35,350 bases of DNA from Prevotella sp. (GTDB lineage: Bacteria > Bacteroidota > Bacteroidia > Bacteroidales > Bacteroidaceae): positions 1 to 35,350 of the forward strand of contig JAFZCU010000004.1 of assembly GCA_017556145.1 (NCBI GenBank), given 5' to 3'. The translations under genes and the position numbers were made by a program. Of this stretch, positions 6,833 through 35,350 are shown piece by piece; position 1 is the first letter of the stretch; each line of letters begins with the position of its first letter. Below the pieces are notes generated by a model, which saw only the letters and a program-made list of their open reading frames with translations, did no database searches and was not told where the DNA came from.

Positions 6833-7987
6833 TTATTTCGTGCCGACGATCTTGGTCTGCGGCTGCTCGCGGTTGCGGCGGTTGACGACGGTGACGACAG
6901 CCTGCGCCAGGTTGATGAAGGAGAGGCCGGTGGCAGAGTCGCTGTTGAGGGCGGCAGGAGTGCCGTTGTCGCCGTTGTCGCAGATGCTCTGTACGAGCGG
7001 GATCTGCGCCAGCAGGGGCACGTTCATCTCTTCTGCCAATTGCTTGCAACCTTCTTTGCCGAAGATATAATATTTGTTCTCAGGCAGTTCGGCAGGGGTG
7101 AACCATGCCATATTCTCGATGAGACCGAGGATGGGCACGTTCACCTTGTCGTTGCGGTACATATCGATACCCTTGCGGGCATCGGCGAGGGCCACCTGTT
7201 GCGGGGTGCTGACGATGATGGCTCCCGTGATGGGGAGCGTCTGCAAGAGCGTCAGATGGATGTCGGAGGTGCCTGGGGGCGTGTCGAGGATGAAATAGTC
7301 GAGCTCGCCCCAGTCGGCATCGGCGATGAGCTGTTTCAGCGCATTCGTGGCCATGCCGCCGCGCCAGAGGGTGGCGGTGGTGGGAGAGACGAAGAAGCCG
7401 ATGCTGAGGAGTTTGACACCGTACTGCTCGATGGGGCAGATGAGGTCGCGCCCGTCTTTATGGATGGCGTAGGGACGCTGGTCTTCGACATTGAACATCT
7501 TGGGCATTGAGGGGCCGAAGATATCGGTATCGAGCAGTCCCACACGATAGCCTAAACGGGCGAGGGCGATGGCGAGGTTGGCAGAGACCGTGCTTTTGCC
7601 GACGCCACCCTTGCCGCTGCTGACGGCGATGATGTTCTTCACGCCAGGCAGCTGCTGGCCCACCTCAGGGCGTGGGGCGTTTTTGAATTCTGTCACAATC
7701 TCGACCTCGATGGAGTCGGAGTAATCGGAATTCTCGGATGACTCTGAGGATTTCTTGCAGTGATAGCGAATAGCTGCCTCAGCGGCCTTGACGGTGGACT
7801 TCAGGAAGGGGTCGGTATCGCGGGGGAATTCGAGCACGACCTTTACACGCCAGTGGTCGCCCTCCTTCGCCGGTGCAGCGACGGATGGTGTATCAGCCAC
7901 CATATTGCTCTCGACGAGATTCTTCTTCGTGCCGGCATACATCACTGTTGCCAGCGCGTCCATGATTATCTTGGGATATAATGTCAT
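6833..7987 (-). CDS. mrp: Mrp/NBP35 family iron-sulfur carrier ATPase
   Basis: A 384-residue P-loop ATPase that carries and delivers Fe-S clusters in the cytoplasm (ApbC/Mrp family). The N-terminal MIP18/DUF59-type domain covers about 1-105. It is followed by the deviant Walker A motif SSGKGGVGKST (about 121-131), the Mrp signature DTDIFGPSMPKMF, and FILDTPPGTSDIHLT. The CxxC motif seen in many Mrp homologues near the C-terminus is not present. An acidic, serine-rich run (residues about 80-92, bases 7712-7750) interrupts the DUF59 domain between a helix and a strand and looks like a lineage-specific insertion. The ATG lies one base after the stop of the leucine-rich repeat gene, so the two are co-transcribed and probably translationally coupled, although no functional link is known. 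Confidence 0.95.
   Translation of the reverse strand: MTLYPKIIMDALATVMYAGTKKNLVESNMVADTPSVAAPAKEGDHWRVKVVLEFPRDTDPFLKSTVKAAEAAIRYHCKKSSESSENSDYSDSIEVEIVTEFKNAPRPEVGQQLPGVKNIIAVSSGKGGVGKSTVSANLAIALARLGYRVGLLDTDIFGPSMPKMFNVEDQRPYAIHKDGRDLICPIEQYGVKLLSIGFFVSPTTATLWRGGMATNALKQLIADADWGELDYFILDTPPGTSDIHLTLLQTLPITGAIIVSTPQQVALADARKGIDMYRNDKVNVPILGLIENMAWFTPAELPENKYYIFGKEGCKQLAEEMNVPLLAQIPLVQSICDNGDNGTPAALNSDSATGLSFINLAQAVVTVVNRRNREQPQTKIVGTK
7712..7750 (-). repeat. 9-base (Ser-Glu/Asp-Xaa) tandem repeat inside mrp
   Basis: Read on the coding strand, 13 codons carry units TCA GAG TCA, TCC GAG AAT, TCC GAT TAC and TCC GAC TCC, giving SES, SEN, SDY, SDS. The unit TCNGANNAN matches those inserted in trmB (9923-9973) and xseA (13967-14011). 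It lies in a loop of the DUF59 domain, which in the Mrp proteins I remember is several residues shorter. Confidence 0.8.
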
Positions 7988-7988
7988 C

Positions 7989-9722
7989 TTATTCTTTCTC
8001 TTTAAGGACGTAGACCTTCACCCAGTCCTTGTTGGCCATGTAGAGCGTCTTGCTGTTCTTGGGAATCCAGAAGGAGCAGCTGATCACATCCTTGAAGGTG
8101 CTCTTGGAGATGGCTGGCGGCGTGGGACAATTGAGGATGACGTCACGCAGCGACGGACACTTGGCGAAGGCCTCACCGCCAATCTTCTTCAGGGCGACGG
8201 GCAGTTCCACCTTGCTGAGCATAGTACACTCGAAGAAGGCGTCGCTGCCGATGCTGGTGACAGCGATGGGAACCTTGATGCTCTCCAAGGAGCTGCACTT
8301 CTCGAAGGCATCGTCGCCAATACTGGTGAGCGCCACAGGGAGTTCGATGCTCCGCAGGGCTGTACACTCCTGGAAGGCCTTCGTGCCGATCTTCTTGATG
8401 GTGTTAGGCAGGGCGATGCTGCGGAGGGTACTACATTTATAGAAAGTTTTGCTCTCAATTTCGGGGATGATACCCTGTATGACCACACTGTCGAGGGTAG
8501 CACAGCCTTCAAAGGCACTGTTGCCAAGCGATTTCACCTGAGCGGGGATGATGGCCTCGCGCAGGCTGGTACACTCGGCAAAGGCCTCGTCGCCGATCTT
8601 CGTCAGGGCTGAGGGGAATTCTATCTCTGCCAGGCTGCGGCACTGCTCGAAGGCACTGCTACCGATGGCCTTCACGCTCGAGGGGATGCTGATGCTATTG
8701 AGGCTGGTGCAGCCGAGGAAAGTGTTGGAGCCGATCTCGCTGAGGCTTCCCTGAAGGCTGACGGTGGTGAGGGCGGTACAATTCTTGAACACGCCGCTGC
8801 CGAGTTTGGAAACCTTGTCGAGGGTGACGGCGTCAAGGCTCTTGCAGTCCTCGAAGGCATTGCTGCCGATCTTGCTGACCATGGTCATCTCGATGGATCT
8901 GAGATTGTCGCAGTCCTCGAAAGCGGAATTGCCGATTTCGTCGACATCTTCAGGCAGGTCGATCATCTCAAGGCTCTTGCAGTCGCGGAAGGCATCGTTG
9001 CCGATGGATTTCATGCTCTCGGGGAAGCTGACGCTTGTGAGGGCCTCGCAACCTTTGAAGGCTGCGTTGCTGATCTTATTGATCTTGCCGATGATATTGA
9101 CGCTGGTGAGGGCCTTGCAACCGTTGAAGGCCTGCACGCCCAGGTCGTTAACGTTTTCCGGAATCTCTACGCTGCTGAGGGCCTTGCAATCCTCGAAGGC
9201 CTCATCGCCGATAACGGTGACATTCTTGGGAATCGAGATGCTGGCCAGACTCTCACAGCCCTGGAAGGCCTGATTCTCGATGGCGGTCACACTCTCGGGA
9301 ATCTGTATCTCAGGCAGGGCGGCACAGCCGTCGAAACAGCTCTTGCTGATGCTGGTGATACCTTGCGGGAGGGACACCTTCAGCAGTTGCTTGGCACCAG
9401 AGAAAAGCCCATTGGGCAGTTTGCTGGTGGGTTTGGCATCCTTGCCTTCTGTGAAGACGGCTTCAGAGATGTCGACACGGGTGACCACGCACTCGCCCTT
9501 CTTCTCATTGGCCTTGCTGCGGTTGACAATCTGCTGGAGCAGTTTGACATCGGCACTGTTGAGCGGGCCGCTGACTTTCAACTCAGAGATTTTGAACTTC
9601 TCGTCATTCTGGATTTGTGTCGAGAGTTGGCCGGCGGCGTCGACCGTCACATTCTTTGAAACTTGTGCGGTAGCAAATAAGGGGATAAAAGTAAAAAGGA
9701 AAATTAAACGATTGCTTGTCAT
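7989..9722 (-). CDS. BspA-like leucine-rich repeat exported protein
   Basis: A 577-residue protein with a signal peptide (about 1-19, MTSNRLIFLFTFIPLFATAQ) and a short mixed N-terminal domain (about 20-110). It then has 18 consecutive leucine-rich repeats of the LRR_5/BspA type, with a 23-residue period and the pattern C-x-x-L-x-x-I-x-(I/L)-P. The repeats run from about 120 to 545, so the DNA has a 69-base periodicity. The C-terminus is a capping segment ending YVLKEKE. No obvious Por-type sorting domain or lipobox is visible, so periplasmic or surface location is uncertain. BspA-like proteins often bind host matrix or other cells, but the ligand here is unknown. It sits between trmB (20-base gap) and mrp (one-base gap) in one minus-strand unit. 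Confidence 0.9.
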   Translation of the reverse strand: MTSNRLIFLFTFIPLFATAQVSKNVTVDAAGQLSTQIQNDEKFKISELKVSGPLNSADVKLLQQIVNRSKANEKKGECVVTRVDISEAVFTEGKDAKPTSKLPNGLFSGAKQLLKVSLPQGITSISKSCFDGCAALPEIQIPESVTAIENQAFQGCESLASISIPKNVTVIGDEAFEDCKALSSVEIPENVNDLGVQAFNGCKALTSVNIIGKINKISNAAFKGCEALTSVSFPESMKSIGNDAFRDCKSLEMIDLPEDVDEIGNSAFEDCDNLRSIEMTMVSKIGSNAFEDCKSLDAVTLDKVSKLGSGVFKNCTALTTVSLQGSLSEIGSNTFLGCTSLNSISIPSSVKAIGSSAFEQCRSLAEIEFPSALTKIGDEAFAECTSLREAIIPAQVKSLGNSAFEGCATLDSVVIQGIIPEIESKTFYKCSTLRSIALPNTIKKIGTKAFQECTALRSIELPVALTSIGDDAFEKCSSLESIKVPIAVTSIGSDAFFECTMLSKVELPVALKKIGGEAFAKCPSLRDVILNCPTPPAISKSTFKDVISCSFWIPKNSKTLYMANKDWVKVYVLKEKE

Positions 9723-9742
9723 ATTCTTGTTCTTTTAGGGGT

Positions 9743-10540
9743 TTATCTTGCTTTGTCGAGGCTGCTGCGCTTCGAGCGGTGGTAGGAGCGGTAGTCGTCG
9801 AGCTCGATCTCAACATCCGGCTCTTTGAGTTCGCCGTTGCGAGGCAGTTGCCATTTCATGTATTTGATGTTCAATCCGCGGGCAATCCACATGGATTCGT
9901 AATAGGTCTGGATAGAGGCGGCTTCGGAGAACTCGGAGTTTTCAGATTTTTCTGAGTTCTCCGAGTCATCTGAGAACTCAGCATATAAATCGGTCGTTCT
10001 CAGAAGGATGGGCAGGTGGTTATGCCCTACCATATAGGTGGTGTAGGTAAAAAGGAAGTTGGAGTCGGTCTTCAGGTGGATGATGCCACCGTCGACGAGG
10101 AACTTGCGATAGCGCTCCATAAAGTAAGTTGACGTGAGACGCTTGCGGGGGTTCTTCATCTGGGGGTCGGAGAAGGTGAGCCAGATTTCCTGCACCTCGT
10201 CGGCAGCGAAGAACCGCTCGATGATCTCGATGTTGGTGCGGAGGAAGGCGACATTCTTCAGACCTTCCTTAAGGGCCTGTGTCGCGCCTGTCCACATACG
10301 GGCGCCCTTGATGTCGACGCCGATGAAGTTGATGTCGGGATAGCGCCTGGCGAGTTCCACGGTGTATTCTCCCTTGCCGCAGCCCAGCTCGAGCACGATG
10401 GGATGCTGGTTGTGGAAATACTGCTCATGCCAGTGACCCTGCATCTCAAAGGGAACATGTTCCACTACCGAATAAGGGTACTGGAACACGTTCTTATAGG
10501 TTTCCATGTCGGCGAACTTCGCCAGTTTGCCTTTGCCCAT
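9743..10540 (-). CDS. trmB: tRNA (guanine-N7)-methyltransferase
   Basis: A 265-residue SAM-dependent methyltransferase that makes m7G46 in the tRNA variable loop. Motif I is [15 protein letters not shown] (about 49-63), followed by [12 protein letters not shown] and the [17 protein letters not shown] motif, the Bacteroidota version of the usual FPDPWPK block. The conserved C-terminal portion is [18 protein letters not shown]. Between LYAEF and IQTYYE there is a 17-residue serine/glutamate-rich run (190-206) where the homologues I recall have a short loop. The gene follows the DUF975-like gene by three bases. Its length and order of motifs are otherwise normal. Confidence 0.95.
9923..9973 (-). 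repeat. 9-base (Ser-Glu-Xaa) tandem repeat inside trmB
   Basis: Seventeen codons on the coding strand read [17 protein letters not shown]. They consist of units TCG GAG AAC, TCA GAA AAA, TCT GAA AAC, TCC GAG TTC and TCC GAA. Synonymous codons differ between units while the Ser-Glu-Xaa pattern is kept. The run replaces a short surface loop shortly before the conserved C-terminal tRNA-binding part of TrmB. Confidence 0.85.
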
Positions 10541-10543
10541 ATA

Positions 10544-11176
10544 TTACATGAACTGTGACACTTCCGGCTTCTCTGCCTTCAGATCCTCGTAGGCGTGAGC
10601 CAGGGCGCTCTGCATGTACGGGTAAAGGAAAAGGAAACCGATACCGAGGGTCAGACCGGCCAGAATCATCCAGCCGAAGAAGCTCAGGAGCAGCCAGACG
10701 AGCTCACCCTTGTGGCCATCGGTCAGTTGCCAGCTCTTCTTCATGGCGTCGATGGCACCGATAGTCGGATCGTCCTTCAGGATGAAGCTGGTCATGACCA
10801 GACCTGCAGCGGCGATGATGCCAGGGACAATCAGCAGAATGAAGCCGATAACCTCGATCAGTTCACACAAGAATCCTGCAATGAAGATGCGCAGGAAATC
10901 CTTGTAGCCGTCGAAGAGATGGCCGTAGCCCAGATCCTCATCACGGATGAGACGGAGGAAGTAAACGACGAAACCCCAGCCCAATGGCAGACAGAGGAGT
11001 GTCCAGATACCCGACGTGCTATAGCTCATGACAAGATCGTTGCCCATGGGGGTCGTGATGGTCCAGTTGATACCAGCGGTGAGGATTAAAAAGATGAACG
11101 TGGCGATGATGCCCTTAGTCCACTTGCCCTCCAAACTGGCGAGCGCCTTGTTCTTGTAAAATTGATTTGATTGCAT
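10544..11176 (-). CDS. DUF975-like multi-spanning membrane protein
   Basis: A 210-residue integral membrane protein. Predicted helices lie near 22-40, 55-75, 95-130 (a long hydrophobic block containing IGFILLIVPGIIAAAG) and 160-190. The features KNKALASLEGKWTKGI at the N-terminus, the VPGI element and DAMKKSWQLTDGHKGEL in the cytoplasmic loop are typical of DUF975-like proteins. Their function is unknown. It lies 28 bases after ilvE and three bases before trmB, so it belongs to that transcription unit. Nothing in the context gives a specific role. Confidence 0.8.
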   Translation of the reverse strand: MQSNQFYKNKALASLEGKWTKGIIATFIFLILTAGINWTITTPMGNDLVMSYSTSGIWTLLCLPLGWGFVVYFLRLIRDEDLGYGHLFDGYKDFLRIFIAGFLCELIEVIGFILLIVPGIIAAAGLVMTSFILKDDPTIGAIDAMKKSWQLTDGHKGELVWLLLSFFGWMILAGLTLGIGFLFLYPYMQSALAHAYEDLKAEKPEVSQFM

Positions 11177-11204
11177 AATGTTATTTGTTTAATTGTTGGT
11201 AAAA

Positions 11205-12221
11205 CTATTCAATGACAACGGTTGTCCATCCGTGTTTGTCCTCGATCTCACCATACTGGATGCCACGCAGGGTGTCGAAGAGTTTCTTCGACTGTGGGCC
11301 TGGCTTGTCGCCAAATGAATAACGCTTGCCCGTGTCGAGATCGTCGATATAAGAAATAGGTGAGATGACGGCGGCTGTTCCGCAGGCACCTGCCTCCTCG
11401 AAGGTCTCGAGCTCCTCTTCAGGAATCGGACGACGCTCCACCTTCATGCCCAGATCCTCAGCCACCTGCATCAACGACTTGTTGGTGATAGAGGGCAGGA
11501 TAGAGCTGGACTTCGGTGTGACATAGGTGTTGTCCTTGATGCCGAAGAAGTTGGCAGCACCACACTCATCCATGTATTTCTTCTCCTTGGCATCGAGATA
11601 GAACTCGCAGGCGTAGCCTTTCTCATGGGCCAGGTTGTTGGCGAAGAGGGAGGCAGCATAGTTACCACCTACCTTATATTTACCTGTGCCGAGAGGCGCA
11701 CTGCGGTCGTAGTCGCGGATAATGACGTATGGATTAGCGGCGAAGCCTCCCTTGAAATATGGGCCTACGGGCGTAACGAAGATCAGGAAGCAGTACTCCT
11801 TAGCGGGATGAACACCCACCTGGGCGCTGGTTCCAATGAGCAGCGGACGGATATAGAGCGTGGCACCGCTCTCGTAGGTGGGAATCCACTCCTGGTTCAG
11901 GCGGACCACCTTCTTCACCATCTCACAGAACAGCTCTGTGCTTACCTCGGGCATCATGATACCACGACAGGTAGACTGCAGACGGGCTGCATTCTCGTCC
12001 ATGCGGAACACGCGCACCTTGCCGTCAGGACAACGATAGGCCTTCAGACCCTCGAATGCCTCCTGACCGTAGTGCAGACAGGTAGCGGCCATGTGCAGGT
12101 TCAGATACTCATCGGAGCAAACCTCGATCTCGCCCCATTTACCATCGCGGTAGTAACAACGTACGTTGTAGTCGGTCTTCATGTAGCCGAATGACAGACT
12201 ACCCCAGTCTAAATTTTTCAT
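11205..12221 (-). CDS. ilvE: Branched-chain amino acid aminotransferase
   Basis: A 338-residue class IV PLP aminotransferase of the long (BCAT II) type. It transfers the amino group between glutamate and the keto-acids of leucine, isoleucine and valine. Visible motifs are YGQEAFEGLKAYR near 51-63, RPLLIGTSAQVGVHP near 125-139 and GTGKYKVGGNYA, with K183 as the expected Schiff-base lysine. The C-terminus has EEAGACGTAAVISPI. Start ATG 12221 lies about 43 bases downstream of a consensus Bacteroidota promoter (12264-12294). It is the first gene of the minus-strand unit ilvE, DUF975-like, trmB, LRR protein, mrp. Confidence 0.96.
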   Translation of the reverse strand: MKNLDWGSLSFGYMKTDYNVRCYYRDGKWGEIEVCSDEYLNLHMAATCLHYGQEAFEGLKAYRCPDGKVRVFRMDENAARLQSTCRGIMMPEVSTELFCEMVKKVVRLNQEWIPTYESGATLYIRPLLIGTSAQVGVHPAKEYCFLIFVTPVGPYFKGGFAANPYVIIRDYDRSAPLGTGKYKVGGNYAASLFANNLAHEKGYACEFYLDAKEKKYMDECGAANFFGIKDNTYVTPKSSSILPSITNKSLMQVAEDLGMKVERRPIPEEELETFEEAGACGTAAVISPISYIDDLDTGKRYSFGDKPGPQSKKLFDTLRGIQYGEIEDKHGWTTVVIE

Positions 12222-12263
12222 TTGCTTATATCTTTTTTAATGTGATTTATGCATATTTGCTTG

Positions 12264-12294
12264 CAAAAGTAATCAAAATCTTGCTTTTAAGCAA
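12264..12294 (-). promoter_or_regulatory. Bacteroidota-type promoter of ilvE
   Basis: On the minus strand TTG (12294-12292), a 20-base gap, then TACTTTTG (12271-12264) match the -33/-7 consensus of the primary sigma factor in this phylum. The ilvE start follows about 43 bases later. Confidence 0.75.
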
Positions 12295-12332
12295 CAAAAT
12301 CGAACGAAAAATCACTTTTTCCTTCCTTTTTC

Positions 12333-12363
12333 TTGTCGGTTAGCACGAAAATCGCTACCTTTG
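12333..12363 (+). promoter_or_regulatory. Bacteroidota-type promoter of the outer-membrane protein gene
   Basis: TTG (12333-12335), a 20-base gap, then TACCTTTG (12356-12363), about 20 bases before the start at 12385. It is divergent from the ilvE promoter with 38 bases between the two -33 elements. Confidence 0.8.
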
Positions 12364-12384
12364 CTGCGTTTTTAAACATTATTA

Positions 12385-13101
12385 ATGATGAAAAAATTAC
12401 TTTTATTGGCATTTCTGGCAGTTGGAATGACGGCTAATGCCGAAACCATCGTTACCAACGATGATGAAGAACAAATTGAGAATAAGGGTGGTATTGATCT
12501 TGGCAAGGGTAAGGATGAAGATGACCGTTGGTCGATGCACCTCGCCTTGGGTGTTAACATCCCCACAGGTGCCCCTGATGGTGTGGAGTTTGCACCTTTC
12601 CGTTCATGGGAGTTCAACTGGACTATTGCTCAGTATGACTATACACCCGGCAAGTCAAATACGACACTTTCTGCCGGCTTGGGCTTCAACTGGCGCTTTT
12701 ATACGCTGAGCGGGCACAAGAACGGATTTGTCAAGGCCAATGATTTCGTTTCAGTACATGAGATTGGAACACAACTCGATGATTTCTCATCAAGTATCCA
12801 CACGACAGCCTTGACAATGCCTCTGCTCGTCAAGCAGAAGTTCAGCAAGAGCTTTGCCGTTTCACTGGGTGCCCAGCTGAACTGGAACTTCTATGCTTGT
12901 ACCAACAATTATTATGAGCAAGGTGACCGTGAGACAGATGAGTATGTGAAGAAGATCGGCCAGCGCCCCATCACCGTCGATGTGCTGGGTATGCTGCACT
13001 TCGGAGACTTTGCCGTTTATTGCAAGTATTCTCCGATGAGCGTGCTTAAGAAGGACCGTGGTGTTGACTTCAAGTCACTCGCCGTCGGCATTTATTTCTA
13101 A
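12385..13101 (+). CDS. Outer-membrane beta-barrel protein
   Basis: A 238-residue exported protein. It has a signal peptide (about 1-19, MMKKLLLLAFLAVGMTANA), an acidic linker rich in Asp and Glu (about 24-50) that may bind cations or be exposed, and then alternating amphipathic strands ending in an aromatic residue (SLAVGIYF). This is typical of a small outer-membrane beta-barrel. Segments such as WSMHLALGVNIPTG, TTLSAGLGFNWRFYTL and SFAVSLGAQLNWNFYA look like strands. It has its own promoter and converges on xseB with only five bases between stops. No specific function can be given. Confidence 0.8.
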   Translation: MMKKLLLLAFLAVGMTANAETIVTNDDEEQIENKGGIDLGKGKDEDDRWSMHLALGVNIPTGAPDGVEFAPFRSWEFNWTIAQYDYTPGKSNTTLSAGLGFNWRFYTLSGHKNGFVKANDFVSVHEIGTQLDDFSSSIHTTALTMPLLVKQKFSKSFAVSLGAQLNWNFYACTNNYYEQGDRETDEYVKKIGQRPITVDVLGMLHFGDFAVYCKYSPMSVLKKDRGVDFKSLAVGIYF

Positions 13102-13106
13102 GGCGA

Positions 13107-13301
13107 TTATTCGCGTTCGGCCTGAATCTTCTGGATTTCCTGTTCTGTACAGGTCAGTTTGTCCTTGCAGAACTTGATGAGTCGCTGTGCTTCCTTGAGT
13201 TGCACAGCGATTTCGTCGATGCTGTATTCATCGTTTTCCATCTTGCGCACGATGTCTTGAAGCTGGGCAAAGGCGGCTTCGTATTTCATTTCTTGATTCA
13301 T
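13107..13301 (-). CDS. xseB: Exodeoxyribonuclease VII small subunit
   Basis: A 64-residue helical protein, normal for XseB. It shows the family pattern YEAAFAQLQDIVRKMENDEYSIDEI followed by LKEAQRLIKFCKDKL. Several copies bind each XseA subunit to form exonuclease VII, which degrades single-stranded DNA to oligonucleotides. The ATG overlaps the xseA stop by four bases, so the two are translationally coupled. Confidence 0.95.
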   Translation of the reverse strand: MNQEMKYEAAFAQLQDIVRKMENDEYSIDEIAVQLKEAQRLIKFCKDKLTCTEQEIQKIQAERE

Positions 13302-14632
13302 TTTACTATGGATTTGATGGTTCCTTTTTCTAAACGGGTCTCAATCTCGTCGCCTTGGTGCAGCACCTGAGGGTCGCGGACAATCTTGCCGTCTTTCATC
13401 GTCATGCTATAGCCGCGGCTGAGCAAGAGGGCAGGGTCAAGGTTCTTGGCTTTCTCCTCGAGGAGTTGTAAGCGATGCTTCTCTGTCATCAGACGACGAT
13501 CGAGCAGGATAGGCAGTCTTCCCTCTAAGGTTCTGATTTTAGACTGGTGGGTGAGAATATGTTCTCTAACAGCTGATACCAACTGGTTGTTGAGCGCATC
13601 GAGGCGGGCCTCCTGGCGCACCTTGACATTGGCGAAGAGTCTGGGCAACAGCTCGGCGATGGTGGCAAACTGCGACTTGTAATAGGCCAGTTTTTGTTGC
13701 GCCAACCGTACGATTTGTTCCTGAGCATCGTTGAGGCTGTCCAAGACGGTTTTCAGGTGGTCGATGAGGAAAGTCGCTGCTGCAGTAGGTGTCTTCACCC
13801 TGGTGTGTGAGACCATGTCGAGAATGCTCTCATCGCGCTCGTGGCCAATACCTGTGATGATGGGTAGGGGGAAGTTTGCGACGTTTTCGGCCAGGGCCAA
13901 GGTGTCGAAACCAGACATGTCGCTGGTGGCACCACCGCCTCGGATGATGACGACGCAGTCGAAGGGGCTGTCAGAGTAATCAGAATACTCTGAATACTCC
14001 GAATACTCAGAGAAAATCTTCCCAAGGGCGGCGATGATGCTCTGCTCCACGCCCTCGCCTTGCATGATGGCTGGGAAAAGCTGGGTCTCAAACTTAAAGC
14101 CGTAGGGATTGTCGAAGAGCTGGTTGCAGAAATCGCCATAGCCAGCTGCCGTCTCACTGCTGATGACGGCAATGCGCTGACAAAAGAGTGGGAGTCGTAA
14201 TTCTTTCTGAAGGTCGAATACACCCTCCTCCTTGAGCTGACGGATGATCTCCTGTCGCTTGCGGGCCATGTCGCCGAGAGTGTAGGTGGGGTCGATGTCT
14301 GTCACGATCCAAGAGAAGCCATAGGCCTCGTGGAACTGTGCATAGACTTTCAACAGCACCTTCATGCCTGCGTGGAGCTGCTGGCCTGTGGTGCGCTCGA
14401 AATAGGGGCGTATAAGTATCCATTTCGAGGCCCAGCATCTGGCTGAGGCCTTGGCGATGGGGGTGGCTGTCTGCTCGTCTTTTTGGATAAGTTCCATATA
14501 ACAGTGGCCCCGGTTCTCGCGACACTCCGACAATTCTGCCTCTACCCAATATTCATCGGGCATCTCGTACTCAATCACGTCCTTTACCAGACTGTTGAGT
14601 TCATACAGCGTCAGTCTCTTGTCACTATTCAT
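13298..14632 (-). CDS. xseA: Exodeoxyribonuclease VII large subunit
   Basis: The catalytic subunit of exonuclease VII, 444 residues from ATG 14632; an in-frame GTG at 14641 is less likely. The N-terminal OB fold contains YWVEAELSECRENRGHCYMELI. The catalytic region has IAVISSETAAGYGDF, the IIRGGGATSDMSGFD loop, GHERDESILDMVSHTRVKTPTAAA, and then a long coiled coil. A run of Ser-Glu/Asp-Tyr repeats (about 208-222, bases 13967-14011) lies just before the strand CVVIIRGGG, where homologues have a short loop. The start overlaps the end of the protease gene by eight bases; GAGGTGAGAG upstream could serve as a ribosome binding site. Coupled to xseB downstream. Confidence 0.95.
   Translation of the reverse strand: MNSDKRLTLYELNSLVKDVIEYEMPDEYWVEAELSECRENRGHCYMELIQKDEQTATPIAKASARCWASKWILIRPYFERTTGQQLHAGMKVLLKVYAQFHEAYGFSWIVTDIDPTYTLGDMARKRQEIIRQLKEEGVFDLQKELRLPLFCQRIAVISSETAAGYGDFCNQLFDNPYGFKFETQLFPAIMQGEGVEQSIIAALGKIFSEYSEYSEYSDYSDSPFDCVVIIRGGGATSDMSGFDTLALAENVANFPLPIITGIGHERDESILDMVSHTRVKTPTAAATFLIDHLKTVLDSLNDAQEQIVRLAQQKLAYYKSQFATIAELLPRLFANVKVRQEARLDALNNQLVSAVREHILTHQSKIRTLEGRLPILLDRRLMTEKHRLQLLEEKAKNLDPALLLSRGYSMTMKDGKIVRDPQVLHQGDEIETRLEKGTIKSIVK
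13967..14011 (-). repeat. 9-base (Ser-Glu-Tyr) tandem repeat inside xseA
   Basis: Fifteen codons read SEYSEYSEYSDYSDS on the coding strand, from units TCT GAG TAT, TCG GAG TAT, TCA GAG TAT, TCT GAT TAC and TCT GAC AGC. This is the most regular of the three copies of the TCNGANNAN repeat. The unit is near self-complementary, so both strands show the same pattern. Confidence 0.88.
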
Positions 14633-16100
14633 ATCTCTCACCTCTTACCTCTGCTTTCCCTATCATATACGCCCGCCAGAAGTTTGGGATGCCATAACCA
14701 TAGATATTGTCAGGCTCCTGATATTGGCTGCTGGTCTGGCGCAAGAGGTTGATAATCTCAAGGGCGGTCTTATCGGGCAGGGCCTGCCACAGGCACGCCA
14801 CGAGCCCTGCGACGACGGGCGTTGAGAATGAGGTGCCCATGTCTCTGATCATAGTCCCTCTTCCTGATATCAGTGAGGTCGGACTGCCGAGGGCCATCAC
14901 ATCAGGTTTCACCCGTCCGTCCTGTGTCGGACCAACGCCACAGAAAGGGGCTACCCTTCTATCATAATTGACTGCGCCTACGGTCAGTATGTCGTTGGCA
15001 TCAGCAGGGAAGGTGATTTTCTTCCAAGGTCCTATGCCGAGGTTGCCTGCTGAATTAATCAGGATGATGCCCTTATTGGCCAGCATCGATGCCGTACGGC
15101 TGATGACGGCTGTATTCCCGTCGAGGTCGCGCAGGCGATAGTCGCCCAGATGATGGTCGTATTCATTGTATCCGAGGCTTGAACTGATGATGTCTACGCC
15201 TGCGGAGTCGGCAAATTCTGCCGCCATCGTCCAATAGTCTTCCTCTACAGGCTGTTCTGTCTGTTGATCCTCGCAGCGCAGCAGCCAGTAACGGGCTTCA
15301 GGGGCAGTGCCAACAAGAATCTGCGGCTCGTTGGCAGCCATCGCTGAAAGGACCTTTGTGCCATGATCTGTCTCGCGATAGAAATGTGGGCTCTTGGGGT
15401 AGACAAAGTCCTCTGCACCAAGAATGTTGGCCCGTAGGATGGCTGGTATCTGGTCGCAATTCTGAAAGCCTCCGTCGAGCACGGCAATGGTCATGCCCCA
15501 GCCTTTGTGTCCGAGATTATGCAGGCGGTGTCCATTGAGCATCTCAATCTGATCCCTGCCGTTGCCATAATGTTCACCTCGGATACTGTCCCAGGGGTTC
15601 CATTTGTCGTGAACCTTTACTTTCGGCAATCCGCGATCAATGGAGTCGGGGGATACCCACACCTGACGGGAAGCCTTGATGAAGTCGAGCGTTGCCAGAT
15701 GCTGCAATAAGGTCGTGTCATTGGAGCGCACAAGAACAGTGTTTTGCCATCGGCTGGTGCCAATAATCGTCCATTCCATTGATGATTTCCTGTCTTGATG
15801 GGCGAATCCGTTAGCTGTTTTTTCAATAGTTTTCAAGTATAGATGACTAACGGGCAGGTCTGTGGAGTCGAGTTGCAGTCCTTGTCTTCTGCGACGTTCA
15901 ATAGACTTATGGGAAAGCCATCTTCCCGGGTGCTCAAGGGAATAGGGCGAGCCTTGCTTGTCGTTGAGGGTATAGCGCCAGATATAATATTTCCCTCCAG
16001 GATATTCTTTCTTGGAGGAGGCTGCCGATGCTGATATCGTCATGGTGAGAAGCACGGCAATCATACATAGTATGGTCTTCAATGGCCTGACTGTTCTCAT
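14625..16100 (-). CDS. S8 family subtilisin-like serine protease, exported
   Basis: 491 residues from ATG 16100, which I prefer over the upstream in-frame ATG 16139 because a consensus promoter lies between them and the 16100 start gives a clean signal peptide (MRTVRPLKTILCMIAVLLT, cleavage near ASA-AS). The catalytic domain has Asp209 in AVLDGGF, His246 in DHGTKVLSAMA, Asn353 in INSAGN and Ser424 in GTSFSTPVVAG, so the enzyme should be active. Residues about 30-170 form an N-terminal prodomain-like region with SHKSIERRRRQG, seen in Bacteroidota subtilases. No C-terminal sorting domain is visible. Expected location: periplasm or outside the cell. The 3' end overlaps xseA, an unexpected pairing with a DNA exonuclease. 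Confidence 0.92.
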   Translation of the reverse strand: MRTVRPLKTILCMIAVLLTMTISASAASSKKEYPGGKYYIWRYTLNDKQGSPYSLEHPGRWLSHKSIERRRRQGLQLDSTDLPVSHLYLKTIEKTANGFAHQDRKSSMEWTIIGTSRWQNTVLVRSNDTTLLQHLATLDFIKASRQVWVSPDSIDRGLPKVKVHDKWNPWDSIRGEHYGNGRDQIEMLNGHRLHNLGHKGWGMTIAVLDGGFQNCDQIPAILRANILGAEDFVYPKSPHFYRETDHGTKVLSAMAANEPQILVGTAPEARYWLLRCEDQQTEQPVEEDYWTMAAEFADSAGVDIISSSLGYNEYDHHLGDYRLRDLDGNTAVISRTASMLANKGIILINSAGNLGIGPWKKITFPADANDILTVGAVNYDRRVAPFCGVGPTQDGRVKPDVMALGSPTSLISGRGTMIRDMGTSFSTPVVAGLVACLWQALPDKTALEIINLLRQTSSQYQEPDNIYGYGIPNFWRAYMIGKAEVRGERYE

Positions 16101-16263: not shown

Positions 16264-17634
16264 ATGACAGATAACAAGCAAGCCGCTCTTGAATTGGGAC
16301 AGAAGCCAGTGGGCCAACTGCTTTGGCAGTATGCCCTACCGGCTATTGTGGCCATGACGGCGTCGAGTCTCTACAATATCATCGACCGTGCCATGATCGG
16401 CCAGATTGTTGGTCCGGAGGCGATAGCAGGTCTAGGTATCACGTTTCCCTTCATGAACCTGAGTGCGGCCTTCGGTGCTGCGGTGGGCGTAGGCTCCTCG
16501 ACGTGCATCAGCGTGAAACTGGGGCAAAGGGATTACCAGACGGCGGAGCATCTGTTGGGCAACACGGTGACGCTCAACCTTGTTATCGGATTCGTCTTCA
16601 TGGTTGTGAGCCTTCTGTTCCTCGACCCCATCCTGCGTTTCTTTGGTGCCAGTGACGTGACTTTGCCCTACGCCCGTGAGTTTATGATCGTTATCCTGTT
16701 GGGTAATATGGTGACGCACATGTACTTCGGTATGAACGCTGTGTTGCGCGCTGCTGGCAAACCTCGTCATGCGATGTACGCAACGCTGTTTACCGTAGCC
16801 TGTAATATCGTGCTGGTCATTGCCTTCGTCTGGTGGTTCCGTTGGGGTATCCGAGGTGCGGCTTTGGCCACCATCACCTCGCAGTCGCTGGCGCTCTGCT
16901 GGCAGATGTGGATATTCTCCGACAAAAAGGAAATGCTGCACCTGAAGAAGGGCATTTATCGTCTGAAATCACAATTGGTGAGGAATATCATTGCCATTGG
17001 CATTTCACCTTTCTTGATGAATGTTACGAGCTGTGTCATCGTGATTTTCATGAACAACCAGTTTGTGCGTTATGGTGGCGATATGGCCGTGGGTGCCTAT
17101 TCAATCGCCAACTCGGTGGTGATGATGTTCTTCATGTTCGTGATGGGTATGAATCAGGGCATGCAGCCTATCGTGGGCTATAACTACGGTGCAGAGAAAT
17201 ACGACCGTATGTTCCGCTGTCTGTGGCTGACCATCGCCTGCGCCACTGTTATCCTGTTGGTGGGATGGACGTTGTCGATGCTCTTCTCGCAAGGGATTGC
17301 CCGTATCTTCACGACAGACCAGACGCTGATCAATCTGGCTGCGAAAGGCATCAAGATCGACATGCTGGTGTTCTTCGTGGTGGGTTCGCAGGCGGTGATT
17401 ACCAATTTCTTCCAGTGCATCGGCAAGGTGAAGGTGTCCATCTTCCTCTCGCTGTCGCGCCAGCTGTTCCTGTTGTTGCCGATGGCGTATGTGTTCCCGT
17501 TGTTCTGGGATCTCGACGGTGTGTGGTATTCAATGCCTGCCTCTGACTTCGGTTCGTTTGCAATGACAATACCCATGCTGATGTGGTATATGAAGAAGAT
17601 AAGAAGTGAAAAACGAGAAGTGAAAAGTGAATAG
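16264..17634 (+). CDS. MATE family multidrug/sodium efflux transporter
   Basis: 456 residues with about 12 transmembrane helices in two similar halves, the plan of MATE exporters that expel cationic compounds using a sodium or proton gradient. Typical segments are LWQYALPAIVAMTASSLYNIIDRAMIG (helix 1), GLGITFPFMNLSAAFG (helix 2) and the second-half equivalents GAYSIANSVVMMFFMFVMGMNQGMQPIVGYNYGA. Start ATG 16264 is in frame; ATG 16259 is out of frame, and the open frame above it runs into the promoter. The C-terminus is a basic tail (KKIRSEKREVKSE) that appears to be created by the reading frame running into a GAAGTGAAAA-type intergenic repeat. The next gene starts five bases after the stop. 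Confidence 0.94.
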   Translation: MTDNKQAALELGQKPVGQLLWQYALPAIVAMTASSLYNIIDRAMIGQIVGPEAIAGLGITFPFMNLSAAFGAAVGVGSSTCISVKLGQRDYQTAEHLLGNTVTLNLVIGFVFMVVSLLFLDPILRFFGASDVTLPYAREFMIVILLGNMVTHMYFGMNAVLRAAGKPRHAMYATLFTVACNIVLVIAFVWWFRWGIRGAALATITSQSLALCWQMWIFSDKKEMLHLKKGIYRLKSQLVRNIIAIGISPFLMNVTSCVIVIFMNNQFVRYGGDMAVGAYSIANSVVMMFFMFVMGMNQGMQPIVGYNYGAEKYDRMFRCLWLTIACATVILLVGWTLSMLFSQGIARIFTTDQTLINLAAKGIKIDMLVFFVVGSQAVITNFFQCIGKVKVSIFLSLSRQLFLLLPMAYVFPLFWDLDGVWYSMPASDFGSFAMTIPMLMWYMKKIRSEKREVKSE

Positions 17635-17636
17635 TG
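17604..17636 (+). repeat. Degenerate AAGTGAAAA tandem repeat at a gene junction
   Basis: Units of GAAGTGAAAA, GAGAAGTGAAAA and GTGAATAGTG cover the last codons of the MATE gene and the spacer. Similar tracts occur at 21431-21449 and 32905-32935, also at gene junctions. Confidence 0.6.
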
Positions 17637-31446: not shown

Positions 31447-31531
31447 ACAACGGATTTTACGGATTTCACGGATTTGGATACCAGCGTCTCATTTTTCTTT
31501 AATCCGTTAAATCCGTGTCATCCGTTGTTGT
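31447..31531. repeat. Inverted repeat of 9-base ACGGAT-type units between lutB and lutC
   Basis: The left arm (31447-31474) consists of ACAACGGAT, TTTACGGAT and TTCACGGAT. The right arm (31504-31531, with AATCCG at 31501) is its reverse complement with 24 of 28 positions matching. The two arms are separated by about 26 bases. Sequences of this kind are scattered in many Bacteroidota and other genomes (recall) and yield spurious FTDFTD or NPLNPCHP peptides. It can fold into a long hairpin in the lut mRNA. Confidence 0.8.
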
Positions 31532-32898: not shown

Positions 32899-32904
32899 AA
32901 TCTA

Positions 32905-32935
32905 AAAGTTAAAAGTAATAGTGAAAAGTGAAAAA
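32905..32935 (+). repeat. AAAAGTGAAAA-type repeat tract between lutA and lutB
   Basis: AAAAGTTAAAAGTAATAGTG, then AAAAGTGAAAA. It closely resembles the tracts after the MATE and purT genes. On the lut coding strand it lies in the 48-base spacer. Confidence 0.55.
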
Positions 32936-34965: not shown

Positions 34966-35350
34966 ACAATGAAGAGTTTGATCCTGGCTCAGGATGAACG
35001 CTAGCTACAGGCTTAACACATGCAAGTCGAGGGGCAGCAGGGAGAAAGCTTGCTTTCTTTGCTGGCGACCGGCGCACGGGTGAGTAACGCGTATCCAACC
35101 TGGCCCTTAGTAGGGGATAGCCCGGCGAAAGTCGGATTAATACCCTATGTTCTTCGTAGATGACATCTGAAATGAAGCAAAGATTAATCGCTAAGGGATG
35201 GGGATGCGTCTGATTAGGTAGTCGGCGGGGTAACGGCCCACCGAGCCATCGATCAGTAGGGGTTCTGAGAGGAAGGTCCCCCACATTGGAACTGAGACAC
35301 GGTCCAAACTCCTACGGGAGGCAGCAGTGAGGAATATTGGTCAATGGGCG
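34966..35350 (+). rRNA. rrs: 16S ribosomal RNA, 5' part
   Basis: The first 385 bases of 16S rRNA, continuing past the window. AGAGTTTGATCCTGGCTCAG lies at 34973; the mature 5' end is placed near 34966 by comparison with the E. coli numbering. The segment includes GGCTTAACACATGCAAGTCG, the conserved ACGGTCCAAACTCCTACGGG and TGGGGAATATTG-equivalent GAGGAATATTGGTCAATGGG. Variable regions V1 and V2 are of Bacteroidales type and closest to Prevotella by memory. The gene confirms that the window ends in an rRNA operon. Confidence 0.97.

Follow-up and report, generated by a model that had tools for sequence, protein, structure and literature searches.

A nine-base palindromic tandem repeat in Prevotella housekeeping genes and its apparent independence of reading frame

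Three runs in Mrp, TrmB and XseA

Why should the genes of unrelated enzymes carry the same nine-base repeat, read in the same phase? The question is raised by a contig of Prevotella sp., of which we analysed a stretch of 35,350 nucleotides, hereafter the window. As the initial annotation had reported, three runs of TCNGANNAN are present there, all on the minus strand and all read as Ser-Glu/Asp-X. The first (7712..7750) lies in the gene for Mrp, a P-loop NTPase of the NUBPL iron-transfer type (6833..7987, minus strand), and the second (9923..9973) in that for TrmB, a PF02390 methyltransferase (9743..10540, minus strand). The third (13967..14011), an array of TCNGANTAN read as Ser-Glu/Asp-Tyr and matching the pattern on both strands, lies in an open reading frame (ORF; 13298..14641, minus strand) which we take to be XseA, the large subunit of exonuclease VII; the names TrmB and XseA are as first annotated. 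These borders take in imperfect end units, the strict cores given by three-unit pattern matches being 7716-7738, 9933-9973 and 13971-14011. The runs go far beyond chance, with 10 three-unit matches in the window and none in 100 dinucleotide-preserving shuffles, and codons within them vary at synonymous sites, as had been claimed.

That the runs are insertions relative to homologous genes had only been inferred. A chain of three TCNGA sites at 9-base spacing is absent from the whole of the 29 XseA, 29 TrmB, 29 Mrp and 24 Era loci that we fetched from relatives, and alignments with homologues show shorter loops at the array position in all four genes (protein alignments for XseA, TrmB and Mrp). 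In the syntenic genome of a further species (G031, 77-88% DNA identity in long pieces), the TrmB array is present with exactly 27 bases less. None of the outcomes that would have refuted the initial annotation was seen: homologues lacking the insert exist among the fetched XseA, TrmB and Mrp loci, copy number varies, and the genome holds many further copies (see below).

No array was found in the XseA genes of G031, G035 and G027. The Mrp loop of G031 holds a 7-base repeat of the AGTCAGG type, the Mrp loop of G008 a repeat of the AACGCT type, and the XseA loop of G018 a 7-base repeat of the AGGAGTG type; the same loops therefore take different repeats according to the species. In Era, arrays occur in the genome to which the contig belongs (G000, hereafter the source genome), in G035 and in a third genome. 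The Era loop could be extracted in 19 of the 24 relatives fetched, and is short and of one length in 15 of them and of another, longer type in four. Different short repeats or longer loops are seen in Mrp, XseA and Era across G006, G008, G013, G014, G018, G020 and G031, and these loops look like hot spots of repeat insertion. Array sites common to more than one species are found in HisS, an M24 peptidase, an AmiA-like protein, TrpE, UvrA and Era.

Abundance and spread of the arrays

The nine-base unit, TCNGANTAN, has the consensus TCN GAN TAN. Its rotated reverse complement is TCNGANTAN again, so that an array looks alike on both strands, which explains why TA-spaced matches are found on both. 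The TCNGA sites recur every 9 bases almost without change, the TA that separates them is less strictly kept, and every third base is free. The assembly of the source genome (3.46 Mb, 82.7% complete) gives 192 forward and 222 reverse pattern matches, 414 in total, while the same pattern read backwards gives 0 and 0; the further copies that the annotation had called for are therefore there. With TA fixed in the spacer, this genome has 141 three-site and 254 two-site matches (control 3), or, by subtraction of 141 from 254, 113 separate runs of at least two sites.

The spread of TCNGA arrays is patchy. Among the first 60 genomes scanned with the TA-spacer pattern, 10 match: the source genome and 9 of 35 others in its genus, with none of 24 from other families. 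In a sample of the family, 49 of 301 genomes match, distributed over 10 of 30 genera (16 of 168 when only family genomes with a completeness of 90% or more and a contamination of 5% or less are counted). A sample of the order gives 3 matching genomes in 149: the source genome itself, one with a single match, and one of another family with 48. Within one genus, the number of matches per genome ranges from 0 to 141. Array-rich genomes include G000 (the source genome), G002, G027, G031, G035 and G303, and G013, G016, G018 and G020 are array-poor members of the genus. Low counts need care, as the reversed control reaches up to 8 matches in some genomes. Five genomes (G115, G250, G315, G151 and G295) have 4 to 8 reversed-control matches and no TCNGA arrays, and what is matched in them is possibly another repeat.

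The source genome, its relatives and 119 stretches of named public contigs, the latter among the matches listed, together yielded 193 distinct arrays, each with three or more TA-spaced TCNGA sites. Among these listed matches, 76 of 80 contig titles name Bacteroidales or Bacteroidetes, many of them from rumen or other ruminant-gut samples; the other four (Marinobacterium, Nitrosopumilus, a Lachnospiraceae bacterium and a deltaproteobacterium) were kept in the counts and may be unrelated. Once merged, the arrays carry 4 to 19 TCNGA sites each, 48 of 189 having four. All loci were found by patterns fixing TC.GA and mostly TA, and constancy was measured only outside the required run.

Arrays are also found in phages. 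A scan of viral contigs returned 68 stretches with matches, although by our estimate many of the single-match contigs could be due to chance. In one 126 kb phage contig, IMGVR_UViG_3300028805_000072, the 65.5 kb retrieved around its matches contain 16 distinct arrays (loci L201, L234, L243, L245, L253, L261 and L262, with relatives in L233, L252 and L138). The contig thus has at least one array in every 8 kb, while the source genome, under a slightly different definition, has about one in 31 kb. Among the products of the contig are a tape-measure protein, a head maturation protease and a ParA-like protein. Pieces related to it turn up in further viral contigs and in one that bears the label Prevotellaceae UBA4301. 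The tape-measure protein matched 68 phage records, all below 60% identity, and another large protein of the contig matched no phage record.

Reading frames, free base and origin of the arrays

We called an array internal when it lies in the longest ORF, provided that this ORF has at least 150 amino acids, is 1.5 times as long as the next and extends 25 codons on both sides. By this definition 74 of the 193 arrays are internal: 20 are read in the Ser-Asp/Glu-Tyr frame (hereafter SEY), 52 as CNG-ANT-ANT and 2 in the third frame. The remaining arrays are near ORF ends (46) or are ambiguous or without a long ORF (73). The single phase proposed by the annotation holds for all three runs of the window, but is not general outside it; of the 74 internal arrays it accounts for 20. 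The sample favours TA-spaced units, so that SEY arrays with a changed third residue are under-counted. When non-TA-spaced units are included, the 27 arrays examined in the source genome comprise, by our own reading, 12 internal SEY and 6 internal CNG-ANT-ANT arrays; of the others, 5 precede the first ATG, 1 lies close to the end of a gene and 3 are unclear. SEY hosts include CarA, type III glutamine synthetase, M24 peptidase, TrpE, IlvD and a class I tRNA synthetase that we have taken for IleRS; CNG-ANT-ANT hosts include HisS, Era and UvrA.

Orientation matters inside genes. Internal CNG-ANT-ANT arrays are antisense in 29 cases, sense in 11, both in 5 and neither in 7; by codons, the antisense peptide is mostly Gln-Ser/Asn-Asn and the sense peptide mostly Pro-Ile-Thr. 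This bias points to a protein sieve. At least one strand is free of stops in the SEY frame in 165 of the 193 arrays; 200 random flips gave 101 such arrays on average and never more than 112. We give this no weight as a sign of origin in SEY-coding genes, as tandem growth of one oriented unit explains it as well. Arrays lying just before start codons had suggested a role in translation starts, but of the 123 arrays outside ORFs 22 are within 20 nt of a start and 55 equally close to a stop, and such a role is not supported. For loci L128 and L166 we considered that the array had entered a structured RNA, but Rfam gave none there.

Is the free third base simply the wobble position of a coding repeat? 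In internal SEY arrays it falls at codon position 3, as expected from coding constraint. In internal CNG-ANT-ANT arrays it falls at codon position 2, with an entropy of 1.58-1.83 bits (the zero entropy at their fixed positions is a product of the search pattern), which rules out coding wobble as its cause. In arrays without an ORF of 150 amino acids, outside the required run, 15 of 376 TC.GA cells depart from the consensus, while 62 of 228 TA cells do so. That every third base is free whatever the frame, and that TCNGA is nearly constant where there is no long ORF, argues for a DNA-level element rather than a selected tag. In internal CNG-ANT-ANT arrays, however, 61 of 234 cells for the T and C of the core are mismatched (7 of 234 for GA), which goes against a simple rule; some of these arrays may be unrelated repeats left in.

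The nine-base repeat thus seems to obey a rule set by the DNA itself and not by the reading frame of its host gene. In our judgement these are probably dispersed, lineage-specific short tandem arrays of TCNGANTAN, determined at the DNA level by a process particular to the lineage, found both inside genes and in the gaps between them, changed unit by unit and sieved by proteins. Arrays would arise at new sites through a lineage-specific and sequence-specific DNA process, would grow or shrink in steps of 9 or 18 bases, and would then be sieved by the host protein. The surviving frames would be those that give hydrophilic linkers, either Ser-Asp/Glu-Tyr/Asn or, with the array antisense, Gln-Ser/Asn-Asn, while the frame giving an Arg-Leu/Ile-rich peptide would almost never be kept inside genes. 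The acidic loops of Mrp, TrmB and XseA would be by-products of this history, not tags. One of the two meanings offered by the initial annotation, a dispersed DNA repeat that survives as a soluble loop, is supported in this form, except that it has no single open frame: at least two frames are common and many arrays lie outside ORFs.

The other meaning was a selected tag. This would be an acidic linker rich in Ser and Tyr, either phosphorylated or recognised by a common partner, and maintained by selection on the peptide. The SEY frame of the three window runs and of 12 of the 18 internal arrays of the source genome (our reading) speaks for it, as does the conservation of Ser and Asp/Glu in this frame while the third residue drifts. 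Yet 54 of the 74 internal arrays are not read as Ser-Asp/Glu-Tyr (52 being CNG-ANT-ANT and 2 in the third frame), 123 of the 193 arrays are outside ORFs, and other repeats occupy the same loops in neighbouring species. The frames rule out a tag as a general account, and we regard it as highly improbable. If selection acts on the DNA instead, TCNGA at 9-base spacing may be a putative site read by a DNA-binding protein, selection keeping the core; its constancy, independent of frame, around a free central base is consistent with this. A site that is needed would fit poorly with a range of 0 to 141 matches per genome in one genus and with places inside unrelated enzymes, and such binding is quite unlikely.

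How the arrays grow and move bears on the other alternatives. Adjacent units agree at 0.49 of their free bases and units two apart at 0.59, against 0.35 for units of different arrays; this likeness of neighbours indicates that arrays grow through duplication in place, sometimes of two units at once. Exact 18-base repeats occur, and copy number changes by 27 bases in TrmB relative to G031 and by 18 bases between two phage contigs, the same array having two units more in a relative of IMGVR_UViG_3300028805_000072. Ordinary slippage, by which every array would have grown alone from a chance seed in loops that are merely tolerant, accounts for the likeness of neighbours, for the 18-base repeats and for the entry of unrelated 7-base repeats into the same loops. 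It yields arbitrary units, however, as is largely the case for the 56 period-7 arrays in 470 kb of the source genome, whereas TCNGA arrays have one consensus across genera and phages; this shared consensus already speaks against slippage as a full account. Two-site TA-spaced relics, TCNGANTANTCNGA, number 0 in a small sample of 299 kb of the source genome chosen between known arrays, and two-site chains at 9-base spacing number 8 in 470 kb, against 6-8 at four other spacings; this lack of relics is suggestive only. That slippage is the whole explanation appears very doubtful. A mobile block copied from site to site, like a Rickettsia palindromic element or a REPIN, whose free bases diverged long ago, would agree with the many dispersed sites in one genome, with the absence of arrays from the loci of near relatives and with the sites shared between species, which imply that arrays can be old. 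But sharing a genome does not make two arrays more similar: over 52 arrays, the longest shared run averages 10.25 within genomes and 10.47 between them, and 226 of 300 label shuffles reach the observed value. This speaks against recent copying and gives no support to copying between loci of one genome. Nor is there an association with PF01797, the Y1 transposase, which is present in 5 of 9 genomes rich in arrays and in 6 of 10 poor in them. A mobile block is rather unlikely. PF00078 was also considered as an agent and shows no association (4 of 9 and 6 of 10 in the same two groups).

A bolder and unlikely reading is that arrays are written anew, rather than copied, by a trans-acting system that moves horizontally and is possibly common to rumen-type phages, fixing TC-GA-TA and leaving the third base free. 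To our knowledge, no DNA-writing system has a degenerate templating or recognition rule that fixes two bases out of three. Hairpin formation was considered separately: over 46 arrays of at least five units, folding energy per base averages -0.142, against -0.081 for column-permuted tandems and -0.046 for full shuffles. Shuffling the free bases alone gives -0.153, and co-adaptation of free bases for a hairpin is not supported.

Related systems and other repeats

Dispersed short repeats that also enter genes are a known kind. Rickettsia palindromic elements, to which the initial annotation had likened the runs, occur singly, each some 100-150 bases long and able to fold into one hairpin, whereas here we have a 9-base tandem unit in several frames with a degenerate consensus. 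The likeness holds for behaviour and not for anatomy: like our arrays, these elements (compare PMC2694212) are small and palindromic, are scattered over a genome and have entered conserved genes in frame, and ours are absent from homologues. One peptide frame at intragenic sites, as the annotation implied, is not what the 20, 52 and 2 of 74 arrays show. The short tandemly repeated repetitive (STRR) sequences of cyanobacteria are degenerate tandem arrays of a short unit at many sites, with 7-base units lying mainly between genes. Short degenerate tandem arrays at many genome sites are likewise found here, but with a 9-base palindromic unit that is often inside genes, and, among the named loci, nearly all in Bacteroidales. 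REPINs are paired palindromes tied to the RAYT transposase; our arrays show no association with a Y1 (RAYT-type) transposase, at the level of PF01797, and no near-identical copies within one genome. What they share with REPINs and other small mobile sequences (PMC3116915, PMC2229807) is to be small, dispersed and often palindromic repeats of bacterial genomes. The arrays also resemble PARCELs (PMC2996958), tandem coding repeats that have DNA dyad symmetry, a patchy spread and a link to mobile elements. PARCELs are 25-residue amphipathic protein repeats in ORFs without assigned function, while the present 9-base unit has a period of three residues, enters housekeeping enzymes and does not encode one peptide in a single frame. 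Coding palindromes of Nematomorpha mitochondria similarly keep DNA palindromy inside protein-coding genes; those palindromes are long and perfect inverted repeats, with arms that code for conserved regions of the protein (PMC6649704), against short degenerate tandem arrays in loops here.

In the open-access literature searched, we found no description of a palindromic 9-base tandem unit with a free third base indifferent to frame. When small repeats enter conserved enzymes, they allow one to follow how proteins acquire loops and linkers. Here a single DNA unit is presented in several frames, and those that survive show what a protein loop accepts. The frame-blind free base, the unlike arrays of one genome, the patchy spread and the phage arrays point to an undescribed DNA process, which can be sought by comparing array-rich with array-free sister species.

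Other repeats are present in the same DNA. Period-7 tandem arrays, counted above with at least three copies, are even more frequent in the source genome and have mixed units with a weak common motif (6.2 bits, against 5.2-5.3 in shuffled units); they occur at many of its loci, and in the window at 1277-1303, 17604-17636 and 32903-32934. The window has another 9-base tandem repeat at 31450-31475, with 2.9 copies of the unit ACGGATTTC, between or at the end of genes. At 7989-9722 it encodes a 577-amino-acid protein, presumably a BspA-like leucine-rich repeat protein, with repeated Ala-Phe-X-X-Cys motifs and a 69-base tandem repeat inside the gene, and at 34966-35350 it holds the 5' part of a 16S rRNA gene that runs off the window end.
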